From: Hygrocybe punicea
Taxonomy: Eukaryota; Basidiomycota; Agaricomycetes; Agaricales; Hygrophoraceae
Length of the DNA stretch: 64,000 bases
Direction of reading: 5' to 3'
Assembly (NCBI GenBank): GCA_963556145.1
Contig: OY744461.1
Coordinates: 6,520,891 to 6,584,890, forward strand
Part shown: positions 1 to 20,569 of the stretch, piece by piece
How positions within the stretch are numbered: position 1 is the first letter of the stretch
Layout of the letters: every line of letters starts with the position of its first letter
Program-made: the position numbers and the translations under genes
The notes under the pieces: generated by a model
Told to the model about the DNA's origin: nothing
Databases searched by the model: none
What the model saw: only the letters and a program-made list of their open reading frames with translations

Positions 1-1040
1 ATTTATTATATATTTCTCTGTATTGTGCATGCAAGGAGACAAGCCCAACTAGCATTCTTACCTATATTAGCAGTAATGGATTGATTATAAATCTTGTTTA
101 CTTGTATTGATCAAAAGCGGCTCAGCTAGATAATGGGAAATGATTAGATAAGATGTGAACAAGAGGATGATAAGATAATGATAAGATAGGATGCATCAGA
201 GAGTGATTGTGATATTCTGCTTACATAAAGACAATGGTCTATTGTTCTGAGCAGTCCTTTGTTCTAAACAGTCCAAATGGTGATAGAGCCCATTGTTCAC
301 AGCCTCTTTGATGCCATCCATTGTTCTCATGACTCAGTCCTATTGTTCTCACTTTTCCATTGTTCTCAGTCCCCCGTTGTTCTCCAACAGTATAAATAGG
401 GCCCCCAAATTCCAGTAGTCAGTAGGATTCCCCCCTCACCACTCAGTAGTCACTCTCAGTTGGGTTCACACAGTGTGATCCCTCATTCTCTTAGTACTAG
501 TAGTTACTCATTGTAGTAGCTAGTGCTTGCAATCCAGTCTAGTTCACTCTTATTCTATCATTCTCTGAGTTCCCCTTGTCATCAAGGAGAATTCACCCAG
601 TTCACTCAGTCCAATCAATTCATTAGTCAGCATTAGTCAGCTAGGTACACTTCTAAGGTTAAGGTTTCATCCTAAACAAAACAGAGTATTCAAAAGGTAT
701 TAAAGATATCCCTGAACTAGTAGCCAATGTGCGTTTGAAGCTTTGGATTTAAGTCAGATATTATAATACCCAGAGATACTCTTGATTGAATAGGCCCTGT
801 AGCCAAAACCATCCATATTCAACTGGTGAATATTGTTATCAGTATTCATTAGTTCATATTTTTATATTCCAGTAGTGAATATTAGTATTTTCAGTACATC
901 ACACACCCAATGGCTATTCATACCTACTCAAAGTCTCAATTCTTAATTGAAGAGACCTCACTATTACATTCTATTGATTCATATAGTACTTATACCCACA
1001 AAACCCCTTCCTGATAGGTAATTTAGATATTAGAAACCCA
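1..1040 (+). promoter_or_regulatory. LTR- or promoter-like segment with TATA box and TTGTTCT motif cluster
   Basis: No coding region is visible. A good TATA box (TATAAATAG) lies at 391-399. Between about 240 and 385 the motif ATTGTTCT or a near match occurs about seven times at irregular 15-40 nt spacing (near 241, 258, 291, 319, 341, 359, 376). Downstream, 410-620 is rich in CAGTAGTCA and TTCACTCAG words. This arrangement is common in the U3/R part of LTR retrotransposons, but neither an LTR boundary nor a primer-binding site could be fixed, and the segment starts before the window. A solo LTR is the most likely identity; a host promoter is the alternative. Confidence 0.3.
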
Positions 1041-1099
1041 CGAACAACAAGAAGGTATGTCAACTCCGGTAATTCTTGGTGAAACAAACATTCACATAA

Positions 1100-1442
1100 C
1101 ATTGTTTCCGTTGTCCATTGTCCCCATCCCCATCCCCATGCCCGCTGCCCTACTCGTCATCCTCGTCTTCGTTGCCCCTGCCCGTTGTCGTCTTCCTGTT
1201 GTTGTGGTTCCTGGTTCCCGTTGTCGTATTCCCCTTTCGCGCCGTCATTGCGTTTGTTAGTTCACCCCATTGTCATCATTCCCGTTGTCCTCGTTCTTGC
1301 TGTCATGGTCGTCCTGGGTTGCTCCCAGTCACGGCTGCATCCTCCATCTCCTTGTCGCCCGCATCCACGTCCACTTGTTGCTGTTGCCTTGTTTGCATTC
1401 ATTTGGCACGAGGGTGCAGAAAAAAAAACCTACAAGTGTTTA
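1100..1442 (+). repeat. Repeat R copy 1, left part (GC-rich block plus GGCACGAGGG end)
   Basis: A C/T-rich, CpG-containing block in imperfect GTCGTC-type triplets ends with TTTGGCACGAGGGTG, an A-run and CCTACAAGTGTTTA. The same block occurs inverted at 8725-9060 and direct at about 44110-44499. Reading frames open here only because of the triplet composition (proline-, serine- and arginine-rich) and are not counted as genes. Copy 1 is interrupted at 1443 by element A and resumes at 7370. Confidence 0.75.
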
Positions 1443-2040
1443 TTGCCATTTTCAGAAAGGTTGTCACATCACACGTAACATGCGAATTTTGTCACTCTGG
1501 CACAGGAAACATCAGTGAGCTGTTTCTCATCCAATTCTCAAAATTTCCATCTAATTCTTTCTGTTCTGTCATCCCCTCATCCCTCTCCAAGTGCACAACC
1601 AACTTTCAGGCCCCATTTCTCAAGTATAGGCACGATCAAAATTTGGGCCTTGTCACTCTCTCGGAGAACATTTCTGGTGCATCGCGGGGAGATACCAAGC
1701 TGGAATTGGGCCAAAATAACCCAGGTATGTCCTGCCCAGATGCCCATGTAGTTTTTGTGCTGAATCACTTGAATTTTCACCATAGGAAAACCCAGATGTC
1801 ACCCAACGCCGCCCTGACGCTGTGAGCATATCTGCATTACCTAGTGGAGAGATGTTGTCCAGGAACTATATGGAACCTTTCATGGTATGTCTACCCCAGG
1901 TGCATGCATTGCCATAAGCTGACCACACTCAGTACTCGGCTTTACAGGCGGCTTGGAACCTCTATACTACACTATCCACCTCCGGCCATTTTTCTCAACA
2001 TCTATCTGTTCGGTTTGTGCACGGCTGGTCTATCCTTCGT
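1443..2040 (+). repeat. Element A left terminal inverted repeat
   Basis: It matches the reverse complement of about 6775-7367 with scattered substitutions, for example around CTCTGGCACAGGAAACAT. The similarity fades near 2040-2055. The outer tip reads TTGCCATTTTCAGAAAGG here and TTGCAGTTTTCAGAAAGG at the other end. Confidence 0.85.
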
Positions 2041-2155
2041 ATATGAGACATGTACTGTACTTATATAAATATATTTGTTGCTTGAGAGCCAAATCAAATC
2101 GTGTGTTACCGCGGAAACGGCCGAATATCATCCTTCCTCCTTCATTGCAACTTGC

Positions 2156-3800
2156 ATGGGGAATGCTCGACAAAAACAAAGCCGAGGTCCCAAAGCACAC
2201 CAGGCAGCTCCTGTCCCTAAGGACCTGCCGGTTGAGGCTGGCAAAAGCCCTATGCCCCCTCATCCTCGAACACATCCCAAACCAACGCCAGCCTACAAAG
2301 TGCGCGACAACAACGGACTAGATGACTCGGAGCTGGATGTCGAAGTGCTAGATCGCGACGAGGTATACAATCCACCTCCTGGCTCTGACAACGAGCAAGA
2401 CGCCGACGATGTCAACATCCTTGTCAAGGAGCTTCTTGGGCCAGCTGGGGCTGCGGACGCAAAACGCAATGAAGAATTTGACGTTGTCAGCTCAGATTCT
2501 GATGCTGATTCCGAACCTGAAGGTTTTCTGGTTTTTTATTGACATATTTCCTACGCTTACGCTAATTTACAGAAGCTCTCTGCCTCAAATTCAATATCCC
2601 TATCGGGACCGCATCCGACATACAACAATTTTCATCCGGCACCACTTGGAGTACATTTTGTAGCAAGGTTGCCAATGTGATGGATATTCGGCATTCCAAA
2701 CTTGAGGTGGCCTATAAGTTCAGCACATGGACTGCCAAGGCGTGACCTCTCCTACTCACCAAAGTGACTCACCTTGCTGCGTTATTCGATGCCACATGGA
2801 CAGAGTTGAATCAGATGGCTAAGGCTAAAGGTAAAAAGAAGGCATTTCAGGTTATTCTCGTTGATCAATGTGAAACGTCTCGCAAGGGTGGAAAGAGACA
2901 GGCAGATGATAAGAAGGACAAGGTAATATTTCAATTGATAATACTATGTACTGGACTGACTACATGCTTGGACAAGGTGAAGGCCAAGAGGAAGAAACGA
3001 TTGGACACAGATGAGGAGAGTGGGAACAACACCGAATTGGGGAAGAAAATGCCGAAGACATCCGCTGATTACATTGCCGAGATTACAGAGAACCTTAAAT
3101 GTCCTCTTCACAACGGCAAACCCTGTGTCAAATATCCGGAGGGCCATCACTACACCTTACAAATAACTGATCTAAGTCTCTGGGGCATGCTTCTCGTGAG
3201 TCTCTCATTTATTTATTGCTTAACGAGACTCATTGTAGTCCACGTCAGGTAAACGGCTCATATGATTTGACCATCTCGCCACCTGTCCAGTTGAAGGTTG
3301 GCGACGCTTCCTCTCACCGGCATGTAAATGCGAAACCTGCTCAAGTTGTCGCTACAAGCGGTGCGGCTCAACCGATCATCATTCAGATGCCACCTCCATA
3401 TGGTGGATCGAGGCACCACTATTCCCCGTACACCCCTCCATCGGCTGTACCCAAAAAATCATCTCGCTCCCAACGTGATGGGCTGCACATCCCCAGCTCA
3501 GACAGCATAGATTTCAATGACATCCCCAATGTCTTCCCAGCCATCCCCACTTGGCTTGCTGCACTCGACTCCAGTGCTCGGGGCATTGATGGAGATAATT
3601 TTTCCCAGTATACTGATGCCATCCGGGTGAATGGGTTCAGGCGCATCCATGAGCTTGCTGGTGAAGGCCTTGCTAATGAGACTATTGCCCATTTCTCAAC
3701 CATTTGCAATATCCCAATTGGAATCGCGAAACGAATTCTCAAGTTTGCACAGAAGGACACGGATGGTATCAAGAAGGCTGAGAGGGCCAACAGGAAATAA
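2156..3800 (+). pseudogene. Accessory gene of element A (transposase-partner family), broken by TGA
   Basis: This gene is homologous to the accessory gene of element B (10797-12686); I do not recognise a named family. Model: exon 1 at 2156-2522 (acidic, low complexity), intron 2523-2572, then exon sequence from 2573, a possible intron ending just before 2977, intron 3196-3248, and a last exon to 3800. Shared landmarks in order are an acidic linker, a domain with CSKVANVMDIR, a Cys/His segment (CPLHNGKPC) followed by a Trp-containing LSLWG, a proline-rich linker, and a C-terminal helical region (NGFRRIHELAG) resembling SAM or helix-hairpin DNA-binding folds. An in-frame TGA at 2743-2745 interrupts the second exon, so the copy is a pseudogene unless the stop is an assembly error. 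The role is inferred only from its repeated pairing with the transposase. Confidence 0.65.
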
Positions 3801-5458
3801 TGGGCAGTAGTGAAACATTTTCTTTCTAGTATGTGTGTAGATAGTCCTACAATGTCTTCAACAGACTTGTAGTTATCAATATAGTGTTGCTGTTTGGTTG
3901 CTCAGAATGCAGAAAGTTGGGATCATTGAAAATTAAATATATCTTGGCAATCATGGGGCAGTTTGCCTTATGTATGGTGAGGATGGAATGGATGGAGTGA
4001 GAGCATCAATATGTTAAGACCTATGGATTATTGGACAAACAATTTGAACACAACTACTGTGTTGATGTCACTGACCTGGGTGGGGAATTCTTACCTGGAG
4101 CCTTACAAGTTGGAATCAATGATGGGTCCCTTGAATTACAAAGTACCTGGAATAATACATCCAGCTCTAGTATTACCACAGCTAAGGCTAGTAGCCAGTA
4201 GCCTAGCCTGTTTTAGCTTAGCCCAGGTCTGGCTAAGCTAAGGCTGATGACCAGCTACCAGCTACAGCTACCTCAAGTTATTAGCTGTTGGCCATTTGTG
4301 TTTGTGATGTGACGAGGGGTCTGTGCATGAGATGATGGGCCATGATCACCCACAACCTCACTGTAACTGAATGGTGATCTTAGTCAAGTCTGGCTGACTG
4401 AGTAGAGGGAAAGCAGGTATTACAACAAAAACCAATTGAGGAACATTCACACCACTGCAGGTGCATTGCTAGTGGTGTAGATCTTGCCATCCTGGCAATG
4501 AGTGATACAGGAAGTAAACAGGTTTGGAGGGGTGAACCACCATCTCGATCAAGGTCAGCAGCAGGATTGGGTGTTCCCCTGTCATTTTTGTGCCTAGCAC
4601 CTCATCTCAATTCCTTTATTTAAGAGCAGGATTAAAATAGGATATAAATTAAGGACACATAGAAATGGACCAAAGGGCTGGGGTTTCATGATTGGTGACT
4701 ACAGCAGCAGGGGGTGGTGCAACATGACTGATGAGAGACTGAGTTGCACTGAGATGAGCAGGGTGGATGAAATTTCAATGTAGATGGGACAGTGTGTCTC
4801 GGTTGAATATGAAAATTGGTAAAGTCACAAGTCAAAAGCAGAGGCAATTAGCTGACTGCCAAGTGAAGAGAGGAAGACCAGGCAAAACATGAAATGATGC
4901 AAGGTGGAAAAGTAGCCAGGCCAATGGAAGAGACCAAAGATATCATCGTGGTCCATTACTTGACTCAAAGCAGGCAATGCTAACTCCCATTGATGAGCCG
5001 GTTGTTGTATTGTTGGTAGGCCTTGGTGCCAACTCCTTTTATCTCAATGGCAGTGATGCCCTTTGACAATCCTGTATTGCAATCATAGACCATTACTTCA
5101 CTCAAAGCAGGCAATACTAACTCCCATTGATGAGCCGGTTGTTGTATTGCTGGTAGGCCTTGGTGCCAACTCATTTTCCCTGAAAACGAATGGCAGTGAT
5201 GCCCTTTGATACTTGTGCCTGGCTCCTCCCCTCAACAAGCAAACTAGGGTCCAGCTCCACAGGCAGCCATATTGAATAATCCTTATCAATGTACAATTTT
5301 ACCCAAACAAAGCCAGGATTTGCTGATGAAGGTCTCAACCCCTCCACAAAGGTTACAAGGCAATGAAGTCCCTCAACAGATGTCAAATAAAAGACATTGA
5401 TAATTGCACAATTACAGAGTACAACAAAATATTCCTACATCAGTCTTGCCACATGTAG
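3801..5458. other. Element A internal non-coding spacer with a 137-bp tandem duplication
   Basis: No credible gene is present. Around 4190-4280 there are overlapping AGCTAAGGCT and CCAGCTAC words. A segment beginning CCATTACTT at 4953 is repeated at 5090, a period of 137 bp covering about 4953-5213. Both copies contain GATGAGCCGGTTGTTGTAT. Confidence 0.7.
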
Positions 5459-6649
5459 CTACAAATATCCACAGTGATGATAGAAAGCCTCTGCGTCGTC
5501 TGCTGTCACTGTGTGCACTGATTCCCACAGTTGGCAAAAGACCTCAGCCTGCTGGTCAGGTGTTTCCATCACTGCACGCACTATGTTGCCCTTCTGCCTG
5601 ATATCGGACTTGATTGCCAAGAACGCCAGTTCAATCGGGTTGAAATCTGGTGAGTATGGGGGGAGAAATTCAATCCGCATACCCCTATAATCCAATGAGT
5701 ACCTGCAAGGAAGCAGGATCAATGACATACCTTTCCTCGATCATTTCGGCAATTAGATTAGACTTGTGGATGCAGCAGTTATCCATTATAATGACAGAGT
5801 TGACTTCGGGAAAAGGATTCATTTGCTCAAGCAGCTCTTCGATGAATTCGGCGAAGCAAGACATGTTGAATGATCTTTTGACAATCTTCACAGTCAATAT
5901 CCCATGGAGGGAAATGGCAGGAAGTATGGAATATCTTGAATCACTGGTATCAGTTACTGATCTTGAACAGATAAAGAAACAAAATACCGTTTGCCCCAAA
6001 TGAAAAAGGCTTTTCTGACAGCACGCTGGCCCCGAATCGCCCAAGCGCAGCCCCAGTACGTTGTGCACCGATCACAGGCACTCTTGTCTACAAATACTAG
6101 CTGCTCAGCTTAATACTGAAGGCCAACCCTTTGTATATATTTGGCACGCAGCAGAGTGCTCCTCTCAATAGCTACCTTCGTCAGCTGTGTAGAATTATCC
6201 AAATCGTCAGTTAGAATAGCTAAAAACAAAGGAAACCGACCTTTTTCATAGTATGCCCACTACGGTGCAAGGCTCTCCATATTGTGGATAAGGATACTGA
6301 TTTCTGGGTGCTCAGCTGGAGCTGGTCGCAAAGTTCTTCGAGGTACACGTCACAGTTATCATCAATACAACCTTGGAGGAACTGATGGGAATTTTGGTCA
6401 ATGCATCAACAATCTCAAGCGATGACATACTGAAACCTCCTCAGAGGTCAAATGACGACACCTTCTGATCAGCCGCTGGTCCACCAATGGCTTAGAAACT
6501 CGGCCAGTTGAGTGATGTTGAGCCAGAATCCTGAGGACTTGTCGTCGGCTTATGCCAGTGTAAGCAGCGATTTTGTCGAGATCTTCACATGGTGTCATCT
6601 GAACAATTGCCCAGCGTAGGTCTTCAGAGATTCGTTTGCCTCGTGGCAT
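5459..6649 (-). pseudogene. DD34E (IS630/Tc1-mariner superfamily) transposase of element A, inactivated
   Basis: The N-terminus (ATG at 6649) carries a homeodomain-like helix-turn-helix (ISEDLRWAIVQM ... GISRRQVLRIL). The catalytic core follows: first Asp in VFVDKSACDR, second Asp in IIMDNCCIHK, and Glu in LPPYSPDFNPIELAF, with 34 residues between the last two. Coding blocks are joined by introns whose positions match those of the intact relative at 18238-19416. One ends CAGGTACTCATTGGATTATAG just before the last exon, and one starts GTATTTTG after GGCAAACG. An in-frame TAA at 6110-6112, seven codons before VFVDKS, kills the reading frame, and parts before it are diverged. DNA cut-and-paste activity is known for the family; this copy should be inactive. 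Confidence 0.85.
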
Positions 6650-6774
6650 AGTGATTCGGAGTTGTTTCAGAAGATCAACGTTGGCTTTGGATACCTAATA
6701 TGGCAGTGTCGAGTTCAACGGTGAAGGGATCATTATTCAGGTAAAAAATACATCATACAGGTGTCGTATAGAAA

Positions 6775-7367
6775 TAATAGACTAGCTGTGCACAAACCGA
6801 ACAGATAGATGTCAAGAAAAATGGCCGGAGGTGGATAGTGTAGTACAGAGGTTCCAAGCTGCCTGTAAAGCCGAGTACTGAGTGTGGTCAGCTTATGGCA
6901 ATGCATGCACCTGGGGTAGACATACCATGAAAGGTTCCATATAGTTCCTGGACACCATCTCTCCACTAGGTAATACAGATACGCTCACAGCGTCAGGGCG
7001 GCGTTGGGTGACATCTGGGTTTTCCTACGGTGAAAATTCAAGTGATTCAGCACAAAAACTACATGGGCATCTGGGCAGGACATACCTGGGTTATTTTGGC
7101 CCAATTCCAGCTTGGTATCTCCCCGCGATGCACCAGAAATGTTCTCCGAGAGGGTGACAAGGCCCAAATTTTGATCGTGCCTATACTTGAGAAATGGGGC
7201 CTGAAAGTTGGTTGTGCACTTGGAGAGGGATGAGGGGATGACAGAACAGAAAGAATTAGACGGAAATGTTGAGAATTGGATGAGAAACGGCTCACCAATG
7301 TTTCCTGTGCCAGAGTGACAAAATTCGTGTGTTACGTGTGATATGACAACCTTTCTGAAAACTGCAA
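6775..7367 (-). repeat. Element A right terminal inverted repeat
   Basis: This is the inverted partner of 1443-2040. Its outer end is GCAA at 7364-7367, followed by the duplicated TA at 7368-7369 and then the continuation of repeat R (AATAGTCAGTAG). Confidence 0.85.
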
Positions 7368-7369
7368 TA

Positions 7370-7829
7370 AATAGTCAGTAGAATAAATGAATAAGATAAA
7401 TAGAATATTTGCCTGGGGTGCTCTGGCATCTGCACCTGTTGTTGTGTCGTTGTTGAACTTGCACGTGAGAATTTCAACCGGAATTTGCTGATATCCAAAA
7501 CGGTGTTGAGTTGCCATATAGGAAAGGGTGGCTGGATTTTCTTATTATTATTATATATACTACAACACCTCAATGGCCAGGGCAAGACCCTGAAGAGATG
7601 TAGGTATGATATATCTACCCCAAGAGGAGTTTTGGTATTTTATTTTATTTTATATTGGGAGATATTCACAATGCATTTTATGCCTCTGCCAAAATTGGAC
7701 CCTTAAACAGCTAACTTTGCAAGTACACATCTGAAAAATCCAAAATTAATTCTAGGAGTACTAAGGAAGATGTACATTGTGTTCCAGACAAGTGTCTGGT
7801 AGTTGGTGTGGCAAGGAATGTGTTGTAGC
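7370..7829 (+). repeat. Repeat R copy 1, right part
   Basis: R resumes after element A with AATAGTCAGTAGAATAAATG and runs through GGGTGCTCTGGCATCTG, GGCCAGGGCAAGACCCTG and CCAGACAAGTGTCTGGTAG. It matches the reverse complement of 8264-8720 and the direct copy at 46083-46530. No gene is apparent; it looks like a non-coding, long-inverted-repeat element. Confidence 0.8.
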
Positions 7830-8263
7830 CAAAATTGATTTGAAGCTTTGCGGACAATCAAAAGTCCATATAGGCAGACACAATCATGAATGGAAGGTGA
7901 GTGAGAAGTTCATCACATTTTGGCTCCAACACATTCCCTGCCACACNNNNNNNNNNNNNNNNNNNNNNNNNNNNNNNNNNNNNNNNNNNNNNNNNNNNNN
8001 NNNNNNNNNNNNNNNNNNNNNNNNNNNNNNNNNNNNNNNNNNNNNNNNNNNNNNNNNNNNNNNNNNNNNNNNNNNNNNNNNNNNNNNNNNNNNNNNNNNN
8101 NNNNNNNNNNNNNNNNNNNNNNNNNNNNNNNNNNNNNNNNNNNNNNCAAAATTGATTTGAAGCTTTGCGGACAATCAAAAGTCCATATAGGCAGACACAA
8201 TCATGAATGGAAGGTGAGTGAGAAGTTCATCACATTTTGGCTCCAACACATTCCCTGCCACAC
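7830..8263. other. Palindrome centre with a 200-N gap flanked by a 117-bp perfect duplicate
   Basis: N runs from 7947 to 8146, exactly 200 bases. The 117 bp before it (7830-7946) and the 117 bp after it (8147-8263) are the same sequence in the same orientation. Since R copy 1 and copy 2 face each other here, the simplest reading is that two contig ends overlap across the spacer of the palindrome and were joined with a fixed-size gap instead of being merged. Confidence 0.85.
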
Positions 8264-9060: not shown

Positions 9061-10235
9061 AGCCCAACAATGATGACAATGGCCCCGCCAAAGCCAACAG
9101 GGCGGCCAACGCCCAACAACAAAGATGATGGTGTAGTAGTTGTGCCTGGTCAGTCATGTGATCAGGTTCCCATGGTTTGACCTAGTCAGTAGCCTTCCAG
9201 ATGTAGTAGTCAGTCCATCCATCCTATCCAGTCAACTTCCCCTCGAGTCCTGTGTGAGTCCCCGGAGTGGTACCTCGGTACCACTCCAATGGCCCCACCA
9301 CGCCCAACCATGACGACGATGGCCCCACTAATGCCCTAAAGACCCCCAACGAAGACGGTGGCCTCAACACTGCCAAAGCTACACCCAACAGGGCCCCACC
9401 AATGCCCCAAAGCTGCCAACGCCCAACAACGACGGTGACGGCCTCACAAAGGCCCCAAATGACAATGGCAGCCCCAACAACACCCAAGCCACACCTAACA
9501 GGGCTGCCAATGCCCCACCAATGCCAAAGGGCTGTCAACACCCAATGACGATGACGACGGCCCCACCACCGCCCAAAGGGGCCCTCAACAACAACTGGGG
9601 TTCCAACAACACCCAAGCCACACCCAACAGGGCCGCCAACACCCAACAACAACGCCAACGGCCCCACCAATGCCCAATGATGATGGCAATGGCCCCAACC
9701 ATGCCGTAAAGGGCCCCCAGCCAATGCCCAATGATGACAGCAGCCCCACTGATGCCCAACACGGCCAAACAATGATGGCGGTGGCCCTCATGGCCCCAAC
9801 GATGAGCCCACCAGTGGGGCACCAACACCTTGCGAAACACGCCACCACATCAATTGATGCGTGTGCCAGCTTCGCGAGGTATGTAGCCATCTTATTGGGT
9901 GTGGGACTGATGCCAGCAACATCAGAATGTTCCCTTATAATAAGCTTAAATATATAAGATTGCTTAGAATAAAATTAAAACTACATGACTCCGTATACTA
10001 GGACCTTTAAAGTCACCCACCCCAGGCCCATGCCCAAGGAATAGTGGAGAGGCCACCCTCCCCACTGGTGACAGTCAAGGCTAGAATTGAATGCTCACAA
10101 CCATCCAGAGGCTGCACCCAAACCAGGACTTCAGTGCCCTGGCATCAAGCAGAGAAATTCGGCTCTCTCTGCCGGGGTGAGTGGACTGGAAGTCAAAGAG
10201 CACTGGGGGCCAACACAAAGGTTTCAGGGTTTTTA
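9061..10235. repeat. Low-complexity CCCCAAC/AATGCCC repeat region, no gene
   Basis: From about 9290 to 9870 the plus strand is an irregular array of CCCCACCAATGCCCAA- and GACGACGGCC-type words. Longer units such as AACACCCAAGCCACACC recur near 9478 and 9609. Open frames here on both strands are compositional. At 9265-9288 there is a short palindrome, GGAGTGGTACC-TC-GGTACCACTCC. 9870-10235 shows nothing recognisable apart from the flank of element B. Confidence 0.55.
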
Positions 10236-10624
10236 TTGTGTATTGCACGTGACCTTGTATAACGCCACAGTCACAACTTCATCCAAGGCCCTACAATCGG
10301 ATGGCCATATCTCAGCAAGTTTTGCACATATCAACTAGTGGTTTGAAATCCCCATTCCCATACCCATAACCAAGGTGTTGACCACTTATTTTTGTTCTAA
10401 TATAGCCATTTCCAAATTCGAAAATTTGGCAATGGGTATGGAAGTCGGTTGGACCTTGCAGGCCACAGAGGGCATCAGCCATTGTCAAACTATGTATGTA
10501 CACTCCAGTGCTTATTTGCTAGGTGCTAAAGACATTTTTGACAGCTCACATGAGAACATGCATGGAAGTACGGTTGCACAGATCGGCACACGGCTTTCCC
10601 ATCTGCAGTACATTTACTAGCATT
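10236..10624 (+). repeat. Element B left terminal inverted repeat
   Basis: A 389-bp arm that is nearly identical to the reverse complement of 19564-19952. It contains the internal palindrome-like CCAAATTCGAAAATTTGG near 10410. Similarity ends just after GCATTTACTGT, near 10630. Confidence 0.9.
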
Positions 10625-10796
10625 TACTGTAGCTGTCCCCCTCTCACTAATACCTTTATTGTAGTGGGGTGTACTGTTACTCGCATAGAACTATTTAATT
10701 CAGAATACTTCATATGTTCTTCCCACTAACAAAAAAATCTATGTTTCAAAGCATATCTCCTCAACAAAGGGTTTCCAAGTCACAATATCCGTGTTT

Positions 10797-12686
10797 CTAC
10801 GCATACAAGTCCTCTTCAACTGTCATTGTGAATGTTCCAGCCTTCACCAACTCCAAGTCCTCTTCCGCATAACGTATTAACCAATCTGCTGTACCTTTAC
10901 CAATTCCAAGCCAATCAGACAACTTTTCCACAGAAACACGTTCTCCAGTAAGCTGGTGGAGACGGCGATAACCTTCTTTATTGAATTTATCAGCATGTGC
11001 ACTGAAATCTTCTCCACAGCGATCAGGATGTTGGTCGCAATAGTTCAACCAAGGAATTATCATGGGATAGTTGACTTTGATAGGCGCAACTGCTGCAGTT
11101 TGTGCTGGATTGAGAGTGGATGGTGGGCCTTGACTGTAGCCGGGCCATGTTGGGGGATATGGTGGGGGTAATAGCCATATGGAAAACCTGGGTTTGGCAG
11201 CGGTGCCTGTGCCTGTGTCTGTGCTATTGGATGGCCAGGATTCCTGGAACGTGGTGCATTGCTGTAGAAGTTGAGTTCCACAGGTTTCACGTCAATAGTA
11301 TTGTTCCCAGGATCTCTGACCTTCAGTGAAAGGTCAGCGTCATTTGACTGGAATAAAACAACCAAACACACGATCTTGGTGGCCCATAAATTGAGGTTAC
11401 TTTCGGTAATGGGGTAGCAGGAGTTCTGGGAATCTTTCCAACATAGGACAGGCTTGTCGGGAAGGCTATGAATGTCACATGAATACGCTTCAATAAGTGC
11501 CCTTCTAGCTGCAACTTTTTGCTCATGGAACAAATCCCCATTGGACTTTACAATTTCCTTGTCACCAACGGTCGACGTCTTTGAAGCCCCAGGATTTTTC
11601 TGTTGATACTAATTTAGTTATGGCCGTGAGCAAAAGTGCTACAGACCTTTATATTATTTTGCACAGGATCGTCACCTTTGTTGAAGATTTGCACTGCCAC
11701 AGCTTTCATTTTTCTTGCAGAACGCTGACCGTTGGTGAGCATTGCTGGGACTACCAGAGGACGAAGACGTAGCAGCATAGTGGTAAATTGTTGCTGTGAG
11801 GTGAGATCACATGGCAGTGAGTCTTTATTCTCAGAGCTGAATCGATACTGTGCCCGTAGTGATGTCAGATATATGTTGAGTGCCTCTGCTAGTTTTTGCT
11901 GGAAATCGCCCCAAGACAGCATTGATGACAGAATTTCCACAATGCGTGACCCTTTCGATCTATCATTTATTTCAACGGTGAAGCTGAATGGTTCTATTAA
12001 ATGTGATAATGTAAGATCATTCCCTTTCTGTTGCGGAGAAGCAACTCACCGTCATCGTCATCATCACTTTCACTCAATTCCACTGTAATCTTCCCTTTTG
12101 CTACCTTATTGCTAGTTGTGGTCTTCAGCTTTGGCTTGAACTTGATGACATCGTTATCATTGGTCACGCGCCACCTCTTGAGCTCTTCCTCCTCATCAAC
12201 TCTTTCCTGGGAGTTTTCCTCTTCCTCATACTCATTGACATCAAATTTCTCACCAAATTCCTCACCAGATTCCTCGGAAACATCATCCATGGCTAACCTT
12301 TGAAGCAAGGCAGCGACTCCACTTGACGCCTTACACCCAGGACGCTGGACTTCGTTGACTGAGGTTTTTTCCTGGCTTTGCAGCTTTGATGCTTCTGCAT
12401 TGGAATGTGCCTGTGTGGAAAGGGTATCTCCAGATTTTGAAGCGATGGAGGAACGTGATTGGGTTGTGCGTGTAGTGGTAACAAATCTCACTCTTTTCCC
12501 CAGCTCTGCAATGGCCTTGACCCCATTCATATTGTCGTTCGTTGTCTTTACCACAGGCTCCGTCTCCCTCTCTTCATCGGACACCATTGTGGGTCCATCT
12601 GGCACAGAAGTGGCAGGCCCTTGGGTGGTGCGCCGTCGTTTTGCTTTGGTTTCCTCCTTACGTTGTTTCACAGCTTTCCGTCCCAT
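10797..12686 (-). CDS. Accessory protein of element B (transposase-partner family), about 567 aa
   Basis: I do not recognise a named family, but the protein is clearly homologous to the accessory gene of element A. Spliced model: 12686-12050, 11993-11647, 11599-11188 and 11104-10797. Only the 83-nt last intron is uncertain: its donor is the weak GTTTTC, also used in the element A copy, and without it the frame would shift near 11160. Residues 1-40 are basic (AKRRRTTQG, a likely nuclear signal). About 150-215 is very acidic, ending in a SESDDDDD run. About 215-330 is a folded domain (SWGDFQQKLAEALN). About 345-400 has a Cys-His stretch and NLNLWATK. About 420-500 is proline-rich. The C-terminus (EGYRRLHQLTG ... 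WLGIGKGTADWLI) looks like a small helical DNA-binding or SAM-like domain. It is divergent from its neighbours across the element and probably assists transposition or targeting (inference). Confidence 0.7.
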
Positions 12687-12847
12687 ATCAGCAAAGAGAG
12701 AGAGATGCGAGAGAGCTTAGAGAGAGATGCGAGGGAGCCTACGTGAGACGCGAGAGAAAAACTTGTGTACTAACACATATTTAGTATCTCGCCTATTTTT
12801 ATTTGTACCATTTGACAAAACAAAACGTCACTGAAATACTGCACATT

Positions 12848-14639
12848 TTAATAATATGAATCATGGGGTTCAGATGGAGGGAACTGCAGCATCAGCCTGG
12901 CATCCTGAAGCTCTGAACATTCACCTATTCCCCTGCAGTTATGGAGAGTCGCATGTGAAAAGTCCAGTACCCGGATGGCGCCTGTGGGAGATAAGACCAC
13001 ATTGTCAGGTCGTAAGTCTTGGTGGCAAACTCCTGCCTGATGAAGTAACAGGAGAGTAGCCCAAAGATCTGACCTAAAAAGAGTAAAGTAGATGTGATAG
13101 TCTAGTATAGGTGGGGACATACCGCTGACGCAATGTAAGGTCAAAGAAGGACCTAAATTTCTCTCCTGCATATTGCATGACCAGCACAAGAAGATGCCCA
13201 CTGACATAGAGACCATACACAGATGGTATTGCTGAGCCCTGAAGTGCTGTGAGATCTGCATATATTCTGGCTTCGTGATATAGCAGTTCCTGAGACAGCC
13301 CATCCACCACAACCTTTCCGACAATGTCTTCTTGTTGCATATCAGCATAATGCCCTCTGAATACATTCCCAACTGATCCCCTCTCCAGATATGTTGTAAG
13401 AATAAGTTTTCGGCATTGCTGACGTTGCCAAGGAAGTGACTTCAGAACTCGCGTCGCCTTGTGCAGCCACTGCTTGAAGGTGGAGGGAGGAGGCCCACGC
13501 ATGTGCAAAGAAGACATGACGTTGCAAAGACTCAGCACGTACGTCTCCTGTTGACATCGATCGAGATCGAATGTTAGCCCTAAATTTTCAGCCTAAAATG
13601 ACCTTTGATTGAGAAGAAGCGATTGATGGAAAGAAAAGCACCTGTAAAGTTACACCAGGAAATATTGTTGCCAGCTTAGCAGCATTTGCATGGATGTTTG
13701 CGTTAGCTGTTTTCGTTGCGTGTCATGTACGGCCTAATGACGTTACCAATGAGATTGTAGGAACTTGGACATGCTGCAGCACGTCCAAGACCTTGGCACC
13801 CACACCCAACAGACAGTAAATGATTAGGGGCATAAATGGCGTTGTCGCATCCAGGATATGCAGAATATCTGAGCACAGAAGGCGGTGCAGGGGCCCTCCA
13901 GGGATTGGGCAAAGAGTGAAGAGCATGTACCGATCGCCTCCAAAGAGCAGAGCATATGGTATTTTTTTCAGATCTGACAGCATAGATATCCCAATCTGGG
14001 GGTACAAATGGTGAGGTGAGCGATTCCTGTAGGTTCAGATCAGCACACCTTAAATATTATGGAGTGATGCCCTGTCTCACTAGGGCTCAGCTCCAGAACT
14101 GTACTGTTACGACCAAGCTGTAATATATTCGTCGCATGATGTGAAAATGCTGTCCAGCTCTTGAACTTGACGTGAAGCTGTGCGTCCGCGTCTCGGTGTG
14201 GGCGATAGGTTCCATCGGGAATCTGGTTGAACAGTGTGTTACGTGTGGTAGTCACAGGCTGTGACGGATTACTGTCCACCTCCTCCACTGCACAGCTGAT
14301 GGGGTTGAAAGCGCGATGGAAAAGGAGGTTGGATGATGTTTCATGGTCTAGGACATAACCCCTCAGGGACCTCTCCAGTCCTGCAACGGCTTGAATGAGC
14401 ACTGCAGAGGGGGCTAGCTGTCTGCCAGGTGCAGTTTGCAGGTAGGCTTGAAGCGACACCAGCATGCGATGGGGTAAAGATGGATCACATATGATGAAAG
14501 CGGGACGGCCTTCCTGATTGGGGGGTGGTATGCCGACCTGGTACGGGGCCGTGGAGGTTGAAGTCGGTACCTTGGTGAATTCATGCTCTGAGGGCAGAGG
14601 AAAGATCATACTGGGGATGAAAGTCGCCAGGGTTGACAT
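12848..14639 (-). CDS. Protein-kinase-like protein, 522 aa
   Basis: Spliced model without stops: 14639-14049, 13995-13747, 13674-13642, 13592-13123 and 13073-12848. The second intron would use an unusual AAG acceptor, so exon 3 is the least certain. The first 300 residues resemble no family I know. The C-terminal part looks like a eukaryotic kinase fold: a glycine-containing N-lobe (LERGSVGNVFRG), GKVVVDG in the place of the ATP-binding lysine strand, a catalytic loop HQDLRPDNVV (Asp467) and LDFSHA (Asp485) instead of DFG. Similar divergent kinase-like proteins are frequent in mushroom genomes. HQD and DFS leave activity possible but unproven. It lies between the accessory gene and the dioxygenase gene inside the TIRs of element B, so it is cargo, or a captured host gene that regulates the element. 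Confidence 0.65.
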
Positions 14640-15534
14640 GGTGCCTTTGCCTTTTCCATGGAGATAGGTGAGTTCAAGTTTACAGTATGTAGAAAGTTTA
14701 GCATTCACTCTTACCTACTGGCTCTTTCACCTTTGTCGGTCTTGCAGCCAAGATCCTTTTATGTGGGATGACAGCGTATGATAAGTATTTTGAGCATTCT
14801 GTCGAACGCTTTCGGTCTCGTGGGCCCAGTGGAGCAACTGATGCATCAGGGGGTGTCCCAAAAAGGTGCACGTTTTACGGTGATAAAACGTGCACCTTTT
14901 TGGGACTGCTTCCGGTACTGATGGACTTTTCACTGAAGGAGCTCTTGGACATGCTCCAGTTCCTCCATCAATCTGCCGACAGTCTGCCACCAGGTATATT
15001 TGCCATATACCAAAAGCTCTACGCCTTCGGTAACCATGTGCATTCTGCAAGTCCGTTCTCTCGGAATGACACAGACCCAACGCATTCTGCCACTCTGGTG
15101 AGTCCACTGGACCATGACTGCCTTCCACGGCTGAACTTTCACATGTCCAGCTCCGGTCCTTCTCATGGGATGCTGACCACACACATTCTGCCAGTGCAGT
15201 GAGTCCATGTCCATGTGGACGCAGCCTTTGCGACCATTCCCTTCACACATCAGGCTCAAGTCCTTCTCACAGAATGCAGACGGTGACCGCACACATTCTG
15301 CCAGTCCAGGGAGTCCATTTTGTGGTAGCTTTCCTTCACCCACCCAGGTCGTCTCCTCAGCGTTTGGAGTTTTTCCTTCGACGCCCGAACCTTCACACAT
15401 CGCGCTGGACTCCCTGCAGAATGCCAGTGCAAATACGGTGAGCAACATTCCCCGTTTCCCTTTTTTTCTAAGTTCTTCCTCCATACATCCAGATCCACAC
15501 CGACCACGCACATTCTTACACTGCCCAAAACCAA
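14640..15534. promoter_or_regulatory. Divergent intergenic region of element B with degenerate tandem repeats
   Basis: This region separates the kinase-like gene (minus) from the dioxygenase gene (plus) and probably holds both promoters. From about 15030 to 15430 the words CATTCTGCCAGT, GAGTCCA and CTTCACACAT return at roughly 100-130 bp intervals on the plus strand, giving a degenerate tandem array. Open frames on both strands here follow the repeats and I do not accept them as genes. A perfect hairpin at 14855-14906 is listed separately. Confidence 0.5.
14855..14906. repeat. Perfect inverted repeat, 23-bp arms, 6-nt loop
   Basis: The arms are 14855-14877 and 14884-14906, starting GTCCCAAAAAGGTGCACG, with loop CGGTGA. 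It could be a protein-binding palindrome between two divergent promoters, a minimal MITE, or a transcript hairpin. The arms contain GTGCAC, itself a palindrome. Confidence 0.85.
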
Positions 15535-18140
15535 TTGGATCGAAGGGAGCGACGCCGTTCAAACCGTATTGGGGAGCGGGAAGGTTGTGGTGCTGGGGCG
15601 GGCGCGTATGCGGTTCACAGGGTTGGGGAATGCAATCGTGGTGGTACGAAGCACAAGAAAAAGAACAAAGGGAAGAAGCAGCAGAAAGCTTGGGAGTTCA
15701 TTGAGAAGCCTGTCAGCACTTTGGGAGGACGTGCCGCAGAGGCTATCTCCAATTTATCACAGGGTGCTATCAGCAATTTGTCGAATGCATCAACCCAGAA
15801 ATGGATGCAGTCAATGCGAGCTTTGGTGGCAGGTGGGGCATGGGAGGGTGAGAATGGTGCTTTCGTGACGGACTCTCTGCAGTCCGTGGTCCAGCGTTGC
15901 CAACGCAGCCTGGAAATGGCCACTGGGCTGGAATTCATTACTATGATTAATATGCTGCAGCTAGCAGCAAAAGCAGACTGGTGGGTCCTTCTTATGTTGA
16001 CACGCTGTGTCTTATCAGCTTCCTGTAGCATCTTGAGGACGAACAGGTATAAGTCAGTGGCTAATGTCTACAATCTTCACTTAATGGGGATGGATGGTGG
16101 CCCGACATTATCAACCTTTCGCACATGGGTAGGAATCGGTACGAAGTTTGCTTCCATTGCCGGTGCTGGTGAGCTTCCTCTTACTGTCATGCACAGTCCA
16201 TGCTAAGGTTGTCTCACAGGATCTATATACTTTCTGATGATTATTGCAGCGAACAACTGCAGGGCTGAGATTTCGCAGATGAAGTTTGATGCGATTTACG
16301 CCATATCAAATACTCTTCGCTGGCCTGATCCTGGTGAGTAGCTCCCTCTGTGCACAACTGTTTATCTCATAGAGTTTAACCTACCAAACGCTTTAGAAAC
16401 GGATGCAGGGAAGGATGTTTGTGAACGTCTAATTCCTCTCATAGACTACCTACGACGTCACATCCCTTTGAGACTTTCCACTATGTTCTCACCAAGTTTG
16501 CTTCATGATATGGATTTGAAGGGAGACATAGACTGCTCGGACTTGGATGTGTCTGATCATTTCTTCGACAGCATCCAAAAAAAGTAAGTGATCAGGGTTT
16601 AATAGGTGTAATAGTAATAATATTTTGTCAGCTCTTTTCTGTCCCTCACGCGGAACCGTGAAATCTGGGCGCGGTGTCTGGAGCCTCTAATGGGACGTTT
16701 GGTGGTGCCTGCACAACTCCATATTATGAATCAAAACCTACTCCATTCTTACATGTCCTCAAGGCAATTTAACATGGACGAACGGCCGTTGTCACCATTC
16801 TCGGATGCAGGCAGTGACATTCAGAACCATGTTCAGCATCAGCTCAGCTTGGGTAGCGTCGTACAGGCCCCTCCACTGTGCGGTTTTCTGGTTCCTGACC
16901 CCGTGTCCCCGAACTACATGGTTCTTAACACTAGATTTGTTATGGATGCTAGACAGAACAAGACAGTCCCATACCCAAGAGAATATGAGGCAAGGAAAGC
17001 ATATACAGATCAGCAAAGACTGTACGCTCTCAATGCCCAGGTTCCCAAGGGTAGTGATGATTTTGCCCGTATGGTAAGGGTTATATGAACTTGAGAGTGG
17101 GGCAGAATTGATGTGACCTTGATAGATTTCTGAGCTATATGATGAGAGCGGTGTCAAGGGCCCAAATAGATATGTTTTGATGGATGAAAATATTTTTGAT
17201 GGGTGAGTTTTGTTTCTCCTTGTGTTATATTGGCCACCGACATCGGCATGGTTGCAGCAAAGACGTCCGTCTCAATTGCTCTGATGGATCACTGGCTGCA
17301 TTCATCTGGGGAGATATGCCACAGGACATGCGCTTGTCCCTCGAACGGAACATACGCAATGCTTTGCTTGTGGAGAGTGGCCCTTCCCTGGTTTATACTG
17401 ATAGTTCTGAGGCTTCAAGTGGCATCAAGTTTCCTGCTATTCACTTTGATGTGTATATGAGAAATGGACCACGTGTGCGTTCATGGCTGACAGTTATCAC
17501 ACAGTTACTAATACATTGGAACAGGGAGATGGTGCGCCCCATGATGTGCACCCATATCTGCTACGTCGCAAAGGGTGCTCAAAGACCAATTACTATCAAC
17601 TCATGCCACGCGTCTCTGAGGAACTCAAGGAACATGCGTGTGAATATACAAACCTTTGCAATACTTTTGAGGATTTTTTTTTGTGGGTAGAAGGAAAGGT
17701 CGGTGTTGAATCAAGGTCATTCATTTGGTGTGCTCATACATTCCTCTCAGCTTATTGAGCACCTGCCTGAAATGCACGAGGACCTGTCTATGTTCGTGGA
17801 TGTGCTCCCAGGGAAGGAAGCATCCCCCGTTCATCCATTCAGTGGCTTTGTTCTGAACATCAATGTCATCACACGTTGCCACAGGGATGTAAAGGATCGA
17901 CGTGTTTGTCTTGTTTTGGTGATAGGTGACCATTCTGGTGGTGAGCTTTGTTTGCTTGAGCTGGGCTTGGTGGTACGCTTGAGGAACGGAGACATAGCTC
18001 TCTTTCCCTCTGCCCGCATTACTCACTTCAATCTCCACTACAAAGGCATCAGGGCATCAATTGTTCTCCATTCAGACCATGCAGGGCAGAGTTGGGTGGA
18101 GCATCGTAATCATTGGATAGGCCATCATTATATGTATTAG
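15535..18140 (+). CDS. TET/JBP-like 2OG-Fe(II) dioxygenase-domain protein, 744 aa
   Basis: An eight-exon model stays open throughout: 15535-16168, 16220-16333, 16397-16583, 16632-17073, 17126-17202, 17258-17474, 17525-17698 and 17751-18140. The start is chosen as the first ATG in frame; an upstream exon is possible. Residues 1-50 are basic (KKKNKGKKQQK). The middle is helical and unrecognised. The last 130 residues form a double-stranded beta-helix pattern: iron ligands His659-x-Asp661 in TRCHRDVKD, a GGELCLLELGL strand, GDIALFPS, distal His707 in RITHFN and an Arg716 (GIRASIVLHSD) suited to bind 2-oxoglutarate. This matches the fungal TET/JBP-type families, which oxidise 5-methylcytosine or thymine in DNA and have been reported in fungi with KDZ transposons. 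Here it sits 97 bp upstream of a DD34E transposase, within the same TIRs. Substrate and activity are inferred; a different 2OG oxygenase is the alternative. Confidence 0.7.
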
Positions 18141-18237
18141 GTATCCGAAAGTGATGTCATTATCTTCCTTGTGAGATAAGGTCCAAATTACCAAAAGAAG
18201 CAATTCAACTTGTTGACTTGGATCAACCATCTACGCC

Positions 18238-19416
18238 ATGGTTGCTGGCAAACCGATCCCTGAGGAAGTCCATTGGATTGTCATTCGTCTTAGTATATCC
18301 ATGGGGCCCAAGGAGATTTCCATGTACACTGATCTAGGATTGTGCTCTGTCCGGAAGATACTTGCGCATTTCAGAAAAACAGGCAATGTCAATGTACCAA
18401 AACGATTGAGGCCTCAAATACATCGTTCACTATGTGACTATGATATACAGGTTTGTGGGCTTGTTTCTTCAGTCAACTATACTCTGCTTAAGCAAATTGT
18501 CTAGCACATGTTTGCAACGTTGAATCAAACTCCAGATCTTTATCTGGATGAGCTTCAGACAGAGTTGGAGGATGTGTGTGGTGTATTGGTATCAACATCA
18601 ACAATATGGCATACCCTTATAAAAGGTGGGTATACCATAAAGAAGGTGTGTAGTTGACATTCTCATTCACAAAACCTGTGGTCATCATTGATAGCTTTCA
18701 CGTGTCGCAATGGAGCGAAGTGCTGAGAAACGTGCAGAATTTGCTGCACGTATTGGAACATATGATGCAGAGCAGCTTGTTTTCATTGATGAGAGTGCTG
18801 TGGATCGCCGGACAACCTATCGTGGACACGCATGGGCAATACGTGGTAGAAAAGCGTCACGCAAAGCCTTCTTCTGCCGTGGACGACGGCAAGTATTGCC
18901 TATTCACTGACAGCTTCTCTTCTAACTTTTATGATCACAGATTCTCAGTGTTACCTGGATTATCACTCAACGATGGAATTATACATTGCGACATCGTGGA
19001 AGGTGCTTTTGACTCACAACTTTTCTATACCTTTATTGGACGTCTGCTGGACCAAATGGAACCATTTCCTGCTCCAAAATCAGTCATTGTTATGGACAAC
19101 TGTCGTATTCATAAACACCCAGAGATTTTGGAGCTCATTGAGTCACAGTAAGCAATCATTTGCCCAGATTGATCTCTACTAAAATATATTCAGCGGCATG
19201 CGTTATGAATTCTTGCCACCATACTCCCCTGACTACAACCCCATCGAACTAGCCTTCTCAGCAATGAAATACCGCCTACGTCGTCATGGTGAATATACCC
19301 GTTTGGCAATGACTGAGTTGTCCAATACGGAGATATATTGTACACTGCTTGAAGCTCTTTATCAGACTACTGAGGCTGATGTATTTGGATGGTTCCGCCA
19401 TTGCGGTTATGTATGA
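18238..19416 (+). CDS. DD34E (IS630/Tc1-mariner superfamily) transposase, 325 aa, intact
   Basis: Five exons: 18238-18450, 18505-18645, 18695-18888, 18941-19147 and 19194-19416. The third intron (18889-18940) starts GCAAGT, a GC-AG intron; the element A copy has GT at the same place. The N-terminus is a helix-turn-helix (PEEVHWIVIRL ... LGLCSVRKILAHF). Catalytic residues are Asp150 (LVFIDESAVD), Asp235 (VIVMDNCRIH) and Glu270 (YSPDYNPIELAF). Thirty-four residues lie between the last two, the DD34E spacing of Tc1 and IS630. It would excise and insert element B at TA. No stop or frameshift is seen, and the TIRs are nearly identical, so the copy may be active. Confidence 0.92.
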
Positions 19417-19563
19417 TATCTGATACCCTATGTAAATTTCCAGACGGTGAATTCATGTCATGTCATGTAAGAATATGCAGATGGGGAGAAGAATGAAAGC
19501 AAGATAGCTCCCTGTGGATCTAAAACAGATGAGTACCAGGGGGGGACAGCTGAAACCACAGTA

Positions 19564-19952
19564 AATGCTAGTAAATGTACTGCAGATGGGAAAGCCGTGT
19601 GCCGATCTGTGCAACCGTACTTCCATGCATGTTCTCATGTGAGCTGTCAAAAATGTCTTTAGCACCTAGCAAATAAGCACTGGAGTGTACATACATAGTT
19701 TGACAATGGCTGATGCCCTCTGTGGCCTGCAAGGTCCAACCGACTTCCATACCCATTGCCAAATTTTCGAATTTGGAAATGGCTATATTAGAACAAAAAT
19801 AAGTGGTCAACACCTTGGTTATGGGTATGGGAATGGGGATTTCAAACCACTAGTTGATATGTGCAAAACTTGCTGAGATATGGCCATCCGATTGTGGGGC
19901 CTTGGATGAAGTTGTGACTGTGGCGTTATACAAGGTCACGTGCAATACACAA
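19564..19952 (-). repeat. Element B right terminal inverted repeat
   Basis: Partner of 10236-10624, with one substitution seen. It ends CACGTGCAATACACAA at 19952 and is followed by the duplicated TA at 19953-19954. Confidence 0.9.
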
Positions 19953-19954
19953 TA

Positions 19955-20569
19955 ATTGAAAGTGAACAATCACATGATCTTAAACATGTGATTTTTGATG
20001 TGGCTAATTCCCAATCACATGACCTTAAACATGTGATTTTTAACGTGAGAATTAGCCATGTCACTTATGAGTTTACTCCAAGTCTGAGTTACTACACTAG
20101 CAATCTTGCACAAACTCTGTTTCAACTTTCTGAAGTTCATTCAAGCTCTTACTCAGTCTTACCCTCTAGTCTACCATATACTGAACAATTGCCTGAGCTT
20201 CTGAGGAAATTCAGACAATTCTCAAGGCCACTGCAACAAATATGTTCCTACTACAAACTGCTAATATTTTTTTGGAAAAAGAATGGGGCAAAGGTGGACT
20301 TGTTAAAATTGTTCTACTTGTACTGGGATTGAAGGAATGAGGAATTCAAATTTATGGGAAGGCAGCACATAAAAAATGGATAAAGTTCAGCTAGAGGTAA
20401 AGTCAGTGTTTCAGAAAATTTTATCTGCTGAAAAATTGTAAGTGATTATTGGTGGATATGGTCAATAAAAACACTAATATCAGAAATTAGAAAGGAGTCT
20501 AAAATGCATATGGATTAAGAAGAGGCAAATGAGGAGGGCCATCAAAAAAGAAATGACAAGGCATACATA
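19955..20569. other. Non-coding stretch with a doubled CACATG..CATGTG palindrome
   Basis: Two copies, near 19969-20000 and 20012-20043, of an imperfect palindrome read AATCACATGA-CTTAAA-CATGTGATT. The rest is AT-rich; I see no gene or known element. Confidence 0.5.

Follow-up and report, generated by a model that had tools for sequence, protein, structure and literature searches.

A DD34E transposon of Hygrocybe punicea with a TET/JBP-like and kinase-like gene cassette proposed to relieve methylation-based silencing

We report the analysis of a 64,000-nucleotide stretch of the genome of Hygrocybe punicea (assembly GCA_963556145.1, contig OY744461.1, positions 6,520,891 to 6,584,890 of the forward strand), the whole of which is called the window here, and of a transposon of 9,717 bp that lies within it. 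The element carries a DD34E transposase gene and an accessory gene as its core, and between these two a 5.5-kb cassette made up of a divergent pair of genes, one coding for a kinase-like protein and the other for a TET/JBP-like dioxygenase. Probably, in our judgement, this is a DD34E transposon that has acquired the cassette and may use it to relieve methylation-based silencing. The predicted gene models were drawn by eye and from the family consensus. The features, in window positions, are as follows.

10236 to 19952: IS630/Tc1-mariner (DD34E) element, 9,717 bp
10234 to 10235, no strand: target-site duplication, left TA (target TTAA)
10236 to 10630, plus strand: left terminal inverted repeat, 395 bp, tip TTGTGTATTGCACGTGACC
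10797 to 12686, minus strand: accessory core gene, 595 amino acids (aa) in the family, three exons (12050-12686, 11647-11993, 11599 down to about 10797)
12848 to 14639, minus strand: kinase-like cargo gene, 546 aa in the family, four exons; N-terminal PD-(D/E)xK-like motif, C-terminal protein-kinase-like domain
14855 to 14906, no strand: 52-bp palindrome between the kinase-like and TET-like genes, with a 23-bp stem if folded as RNA (family-consensus letters)
14921 to 18140, plus strand: cargo gene for the TET/JBP-like dioxygenase, modelled with 13 exons and 844 aa; its last exons, at about 17126-18140, code for the catalytic domain
18238 to 19416, plus strand: DD34E transposase gene, 325 aa, five exons (18238-18450, 18505-18645, 18695-18888, 18941-19147, 19194-19416)
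19558 to 19952, minus strand: right terminal inverted repeat, 395 bp, one mismatch to the left repeat
19953 to 19954, no strand: target-site duplication, right TA

The TA duplication was confirmed on unoccupied sites. When the two flanks were joined over a single TA, the resulting sequence corresponded to copies of the surrounding repeat that lack the insertion. Among 54 matches to a 100-base junction query, 40 spanned at least 90 of its 100 bases, and three unoccupied copies that were read out had the form ...TTTTTAATTG, which gives TTAA as the target and the TA as the duplicated part. The terminal inverted repeats (TIRs) and the TA duplication are as in IS630/Tc1-mariner. The insertion lies within a multi-copy repeat (10170-10235 and 19953-20050) that has a duplicated 36-bp unit there.

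The transposase has the catalytic triad D149/D235/E270, with 34 residues separating the last two, which is the spacing of the ITm group, and its gene contains one GC-AG intron (window 18885-18945). Profile searches gave 99.2 bits for DDE_3 (cut-off 28.6) and 31.5 bits for the N-terminal helix-turn-helix HTH_33 (cut-off 25). In the accessory protein no domain reached its curated score in a Pfam profile search; its relatives were found in Russula and Amanita, and over the whole analysis relatives were met in Flammula, Trametes, Pluteus, Armillaria, Russula and Amanita. The accessory gene of the window differs from the family majority by a 1-base frameshift near 11164. A weak match to the accessory protein (expectation value, E, 1.1e-5) was also seen at window positions 3324-3776 (G000:C1:6524214-6524666), where a second core-gene relative may therefore lie.

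The kinase-like protein scored 30.6 bits for Pkinase against a cut-off of 31.7, and 23.3 bits for APH against 23.2. The kinase motifs read HQD..N and DFS in families A and C (A being the family of the window element, B and C its relatives described below), with NFS in the B copy L037. Its N-terminal part is more conserved than the rest and, although it matched no Pfam profile, contains the motif PD...VEFK, which is present in the consensus of A as well as in L034, L037, L035 and L041, with K in place of E in the window copy; the PD...ExK pattern is presumably that of the PD-(D/E)xK nucleases. A search of the protein database returned a single weak homologue (E 4e-4). The window copy of the gene has a premature TGA at 13723-13725 relative to the family majority, and the dioxygenase frame is open. 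The dioxygenase model is uncertain at its repetitive 5' exons (within 15068-15535), where tandem exon-like repeats differ in number among copies and leave the window copy 238 bp shorter than the majority consensus.

A first-pass annotation of the window had already described a DD34E transposon with TET/JBP-like and kinase-like cargo, and the triad, the DDE_3 match and the Tet_JBP match given below bear this out. Its TA duplications were recovered on the unoccupied sites and its 325-aa transposase has the length of our model, while its 389-bp TIRs with one difference were right as to the single mismatch and short of the 395 bp found here. The description of four models without stops, apparently intact, had to be abandoned in view of the kinase-like stop and the accessory frameshift. 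The dioxygenase was lengthened from 744 to 844 aa, with the 5' exons uncertain, and the kinase-like and accessory proteins from 522 and 567 aa to the family lengths of 546 and 595; the shorter models appear to have skipped over the breaks of the window copy.

The same cassette occurs in this genome on transposons of an unrelated type. Identity cut-offs sorted 54 dioxygenase matches (of 64, six secondary fragments and the four weakest being left out) into families A (16), B (15), C (16) and D (7), and 45 of 49 kinase-like matches entered the comparison; two matches assigned to C by the cut-off may belong to B, going by their kinase-like genes. On the opposite strand, no more than 15 kb from the dioxygenase, a kinase-like gene was found for 15/16 A, 14/15 B, 11/16 C and 0/7 D matches, the partner in range being missing for five C matches and one B match. 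With a query taken from a B copy, a Plavaka match was found within 20 kb for 14 of the 15 B matches, for 11 of the 16 C matches and for none of the seven D matches; the one Plavaka match near any of the 16 A dioxygenases is part of an adjacent B element at a distance of 12-19 kb. An A-type accessory gene stands within 12 kb in 13/16 A matches and in none of B, C or D, on an accessory list of 14 entries, all of family A. In B (L034, L037) and C (L035, L041) the divergent pair and the palindrome, diverged in C, are the same as in A, whereas the DD34E transposase and the accessory gene are replaced by a CACTA-type Plavaka transposase beside the kinase-like gene and a DUF6532-type protein (PF20149, seen in C) past the dioxygenase. 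The Plavaka transposase of family C matched PF18759 by hidden Markov model search (E 6.6e-19 and 1.1e-38), and that of B was assigned by homology. The first-pass annotation had asked whether the four genes recur together, as they do in family A, and whether the cargo also stands outside the TIRs at syntenic host positions: the pair is indeed found outside such TIRs, but on Plavaka transposons.

The cassettes of A and B are about 72% identical in DNA (pieces 68-77%) and those of A and C about 65%. The A-B homology covers both genes and part of the intergenic space, with gaps in part of the kinase-like gene and in the repeat-rich 5' region of the dioxygenase gene. In A-B and A-C alike the homology stops no more than about 40 bases from the 3' end of either gene. 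That both genes are jointly retained on two unrelated transposon types suggests that the pair acts as one unit. Tree building joined A to B and left C outside the two (84/96-98); the kinase-like tree, midpoint-rooted, gives 100/100. From this branching of the sequences we infer that the cassette may have passed from Plavaka to DD34E. The presence of the pair on two kinds of transposon in one genome suggests that it is exchanged between transposons as a ready-made anti-silencing kit.

Among the DD34E elements the interval between the two core genes looks like a cargo slot, because it is empty in one relative and differently filled in another. The bare core L040 is 5.1 kb long, with 277-bp inverted repeats (96%), a transposase gene and an accessory gene, and no cassette. 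The sister element L038 (G000:C1:2774500-2783499, 982-7775), with 357-bp inverted repeats (95%), has a COPA/WD40 gene fragment where family A has the cassette. A third locus, L039, has both core genes, with no inverted repeat in the 6 kb examined. Over the 50 of 161 accessory matches and 53 of 247 transposase matches that were entered, non-A accessory loci had a transposase within 12 kb in 38 of 50 cases, and a dioxygenase within 12 kb in none of the 50.

Family A is a multi-copy family with broken copies. The 19-base TIR tip, which the first-pass annotation had proposed as a genome query, is found at 27 places in the 92-Mb genome, 13 in forward and 14 in reverse orientation (none for the reversed control), and abuts TA at 26 and TTA/TAA at 25 of the 27, two loci being duplicates of one insertion. 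Seven clean tip pairs with a spacing of 9.7-11.3 kb were obtained among the 20 copies examined, the window copy included; long BLAST matches between copies were 95-99% identical. Frames were scored on 18 of the 20, L024 and L025 having single tips. All four frames are open in one of the seven paired full-length copies, and in the other six one to three genes are broken by stops, frameshift, deletion or insertion. Two copies, G000:C2:2951041-2961981 and C2:2981625-2991624, align at 100% identity along 9,499 bases and have the same 12 flanking bases, and thus probably reflect a recent duplication of the locus rather than two insertions.

The palindrome between the cargo genes folds, as consensus RNA, at -37.6 kcal/mol (z-score -9.8). 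All 63 genome matches to its half-site, at no more than one mismatch, lie within 600 bases upstream of the start of a kinase-like gene, which rules out a scattered miniature inverted-repeat transposable element for the A/B form; a known RNA family was likewise rejected, the microRNA-precursor-like and other matches all falling under their gathering scores. The A/B half-site is present at 32 of the 45 kinase-like loci, and the 13 without it comprise ten of family C, two distant loci and one open-frame A copy. In C both arms differ from those of A and still pair; by eye, ten of the 11 genome sites of this form lie less than 4 kb from a kinase-like gene, and the eleventh (C33) is near a dioxygenase match whose kinase-like gene is 18 kb distant. 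Between A and B the palindrome is identical at 45 of 52 bases directly, and the identity is 94.5% (55 bases) when one of the two copies is inverted, the loop being inverted in B relative to A and C. The palindrome may be an operator, a dioxygenase-leader hairpin or a recombination-prone structure. Two observations qualify this picture. A diverged palindrome (82% over 45 bases) at 8139-8183 of L037 lies past the kinase-like gene and before the Plavaka frame, at odds with a placement confined to the cassette; and a 52-bp deletion has removed the palindrome from the single paired copy in which all four frames are open, so that either the palindrome is not strictly needed or the open-frame copy is impaired.

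The copies carry a strong mark of CpG decay. In 11 clean A copies of 18 (L022, L026, L027, L028, L029 and L030 were left out as stretches that leave the element or are interrupted, and L023 as a duplicate of C2:2951041), we counted 1189 differences from the consensus, of which 646 were C-to-T changes at CpG, at a rate 20 times that of other C/G positions, and 18 of 28 nonsense entries were CGA to TGA, with one further C-to-A at CpG; shared changes count more than once in both tallies. CpG-type changes also account for 49/58 differences in a B pair, 72/116 in a C pair and 65/98 between the window copy and one A copy. Given this load the copies were probably CpG-methylated in the past, and CpG methylation is the mark that a TET enzyme would oxidise.

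A Tet_JBP match at E<0.01 was obtained in all six aligned dioxygenase sequences. The Fe(II)/2-oxoglutarate facial triad HxD...H is invariant in the six (H262, D264 and H310 of the first). The motif reads HRD in A and B (L037) and HCD in C (L035), and not the HxE of the PE type. The structure model of an Armillaria relative, P0004, was matched first by 17 Protein Data Bank entries of CcTet, NgTET and CMD1, although the model is of low confidence (predicted local distance difference test, pLDDT, 41). Its best match is CcTet of Coprinopsis cinerea (7vpn, 8jkk), at 12-15% identity, in a comparison made through P0004 and not the window protein; TET2 stands further down (E 1e-3), with NMAD-1, PHD2 and Ofd2 also lower. 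Against the first-pass annotation's own caveat, that the domain might turn out to be an unrelated fold, the low-confidence model thus has its best matches in CcTet and NgTET. L036 (G000:C33:3437500-3447499) holds a more remote TET-like gene (46%) that lacks a kinase partner and lies near a long open reading frame which resembles, by eye, a piece of a Helitron replicase/helicase.

A substrate other than 5-methylcytosine, namely thymine, N6-methyladenine, RNA or protein, is the alternative that survives best, and we consider it unlikely. It draws on the distance of the enzyme from known TETs, on the lower-ranking NMAD-1, PHD2 and Ofd2 matches, and on the residues downstream of HxD: AG-type TETs have Gly331 and Asp337 there in CcTET numbering (PMC12730594, available text), and the equivalents here, by ungapped counting from HxD, are D and V, so that the position of Asp337 is not Asp. 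The fold matches speak the other way, since the first 17 are all to known 5-methylcytosine enzymes, albeit from a low-confidence model, as does the CpG-type decay of the copies.

The cassette might instead be passenger DNA, picked up by chance and useless to the transposon. The COPA/WD40 fragment in the same slot of L038, plausibly a mere piece of a host gene, and the near-neutral decay within family A fit such a reading, but the ratio of nonsynonymous to synonymous rates (dN/dS) across families does not. For the dioxygenase it is 0.15-0.19 between A and B (0.10 in the catalytic part) and 0.13-0.16 between A and C; for the kinase-like gene it is 0.14-0.21 and 0.20-0.21, respectively, and against L037 0.12 in the N-terminal and 0.30 in the kinase part. 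These values are rough because dS exceeds 1, and the matched stretches may include intron bases. The core genes gave 0.06 (transposase) and 0.12 (accessory) between A and L040, with dS saturated at 3.5; against L038 and L039 the comparison was saturated, and only L040 yielded a value. The low ratios of both cargo genes across A, B and C, their joint retention on two transposon types, and a palindrome better conserved than the surrounding cassette (45/52, or 94.5%, against about 72%) leave the passenger reading with little probability.

Similarly doubtful is a cassette that serves the fungus, with host TET-like and kinase-like genes spread by transposons and kept by selection on a host function. 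A dN/dS below 1 alone does not tell whose fitness is served, and oxidised methylcytosine has also been reported over retrotransposons in other Agaricomycetes (PMC12730594, available text). A distant kinase-like gene (39%) with an open frame and no dioxygenase match in range, at G000:C36:1357229-1357840, could be a host or ancestral locus. On the other hand, 44 of the 45 kinase-like loci reach at least 54% identity and 43 at least 60%, which is the range of families A, B and C, and the genes occur in multi-copy families with broken copies.

A reading of very low probability makes the two divergent genes a self-contained selfish module of the modification-restriction kind in eukaryotic transposons, moving as a unit between transposase types, here from Plavaka to DD34E, in which the TET-like enzyme would oxidise methylcytosine of the element, a kinase-controlled PD-(D/E)xK nuclease would sense methylated or oxidised DNA and clear silenced competitors or license cutting, and the palindrome would coordinate both genes.

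Under the explanation that we favour, an acquired cassette that relieves methylation-based silencing, a cut-and-paste IS630/Tc1-mariner transposon with a core of DD34E transposase and accessory protein would have taken up, between its core genes, a ready-made head-to-head cassette with its 52-bp palindrome. The dioxygenase would oxidise 5-methylcytosine on element DNA and so relieve methylation-based silencing, or alternatively let newly made copies be expressed and moved, while the kinase-like partner and the palindrome might regulate or assist this step. That the element demethylates its own copies is plausible as a hypothesis.

Several observations weigh against this explanation or parts of it. 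The Tet_JBP match, at 25.3 bits (E 1e-5 to 2e-5), is below the Pfam cut-off of 34.9, for which reason the enzyme is called TET/JBP-like and not a curated member; TET2 was reached by sequence only at E 1.4. The TET-type superpositions of the P0004 model are poor (template-modelling score 0.15-0.19 by query, root-mean-square deviation 11-18 Å), and the model of the last dioxygenase exon of the window (pLDDT 46) had no fold match at E<=0.001. As for the direction from Plavaka to DD34E, the forks behind it stand at 84/96-98 and the outgroup branches are long, and the catalytic domain alone does not resolve A, B and C. In the matched stretches of L037, L035 and L041 there are one or two stop letters, from intron read-through or decay. 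Within family A the nonsynonymous to synonymous counts are only slightly below the neutral estimates: 142/75 for the accessory gene (neutral 2.17), 137/90 for the kinase-like gene (2.03), 180/91 for the dioxygenase (2.46) and 83/34 for the transposase (3.71). Since CpG decay is seen in the copies of all three families, A, B and C, carriage of the gene did not prevent it and any protection by the dioxygenase was incomplete; and because the window outside the element is equally CpG-poor (observed/expected CpG 0.53, against 0.56-0.71 in element pairs), the decay is no special sign of cassette elements.

Elsewhere in the window, degenerate repeats with a spacing of about 100-310 bp were seen at 9081-9661, and a run of 200 N, either a gap or letters withheld, at 7947-8146.

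Typical members of IS630/Tc1-mariner carry a transposase only. The present element shares with them a DD34E transposase with DDE_3 and helix-turn-helix domains, the TA duplication and the inverted repeats, and differs in its length of 9.7 kb, its accessory core gene and its two-gene cargo. TET-bearing DNA transposons of fungi are already known from 11 lineages (Kojima 2025, PMC12730594), the carriers named in the available text being Zisupton, Kyakuja, Dileera, hAT7, IS3EU, PHISTA/Harbinger, EnSpm, ESTA, Plavaka and Helitron1/2. As here, a TET/JBP gene is transposon-borne and exchanged between superfamilies, with Plavaka among the carriers. The TET-bearing Plavaka elements described there are of the PE type with HxE, whereas the Hygrocybe punicea families have HxD, and the kinase partner described there is an alpha-kinase in IS3EU families, whereas the one found here is protein-kinase-like and has an additional N-terminal part. 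A word count over the main text of that paper gave no instance of mariner, IS630 or DD34E, and the two-gene cassette and the palindrome were not found in its available text; nor did literature searches turn up a DD34E/mariner carrier of TET. The first-pass annotation's view of an undescribed system is thus too broad for TET-bearing transposons as such, and stands, within the literature examined, for the DD34E carrier and the two-gene cassette with its palindrome. The kinase-like protein resembles, by motif only, the REase-kinase (CR/Crinkler-type) proteins, which combine a nuclease-like and a kinase domain (PMC5289972, available text, citing Zhang 2016); with an N-terminal part that matched no profile, this likeness is a lead only.

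IS630/Tc1-mariner thus joins the groups of transposons with a TET-like enzyme, and what is exchanged is not a TET gene by itself but a cassette of two genes with a conserved palindrome. A single genome has the cassette on transposons of two unrelated types, along with a cassette-free DD34E core and many CpG-decayed copies, and because it has all these forms, the questions whether a TET enzyme assists escape of a transposon from methylation, and what the kinase-like partner does, become directly testable.

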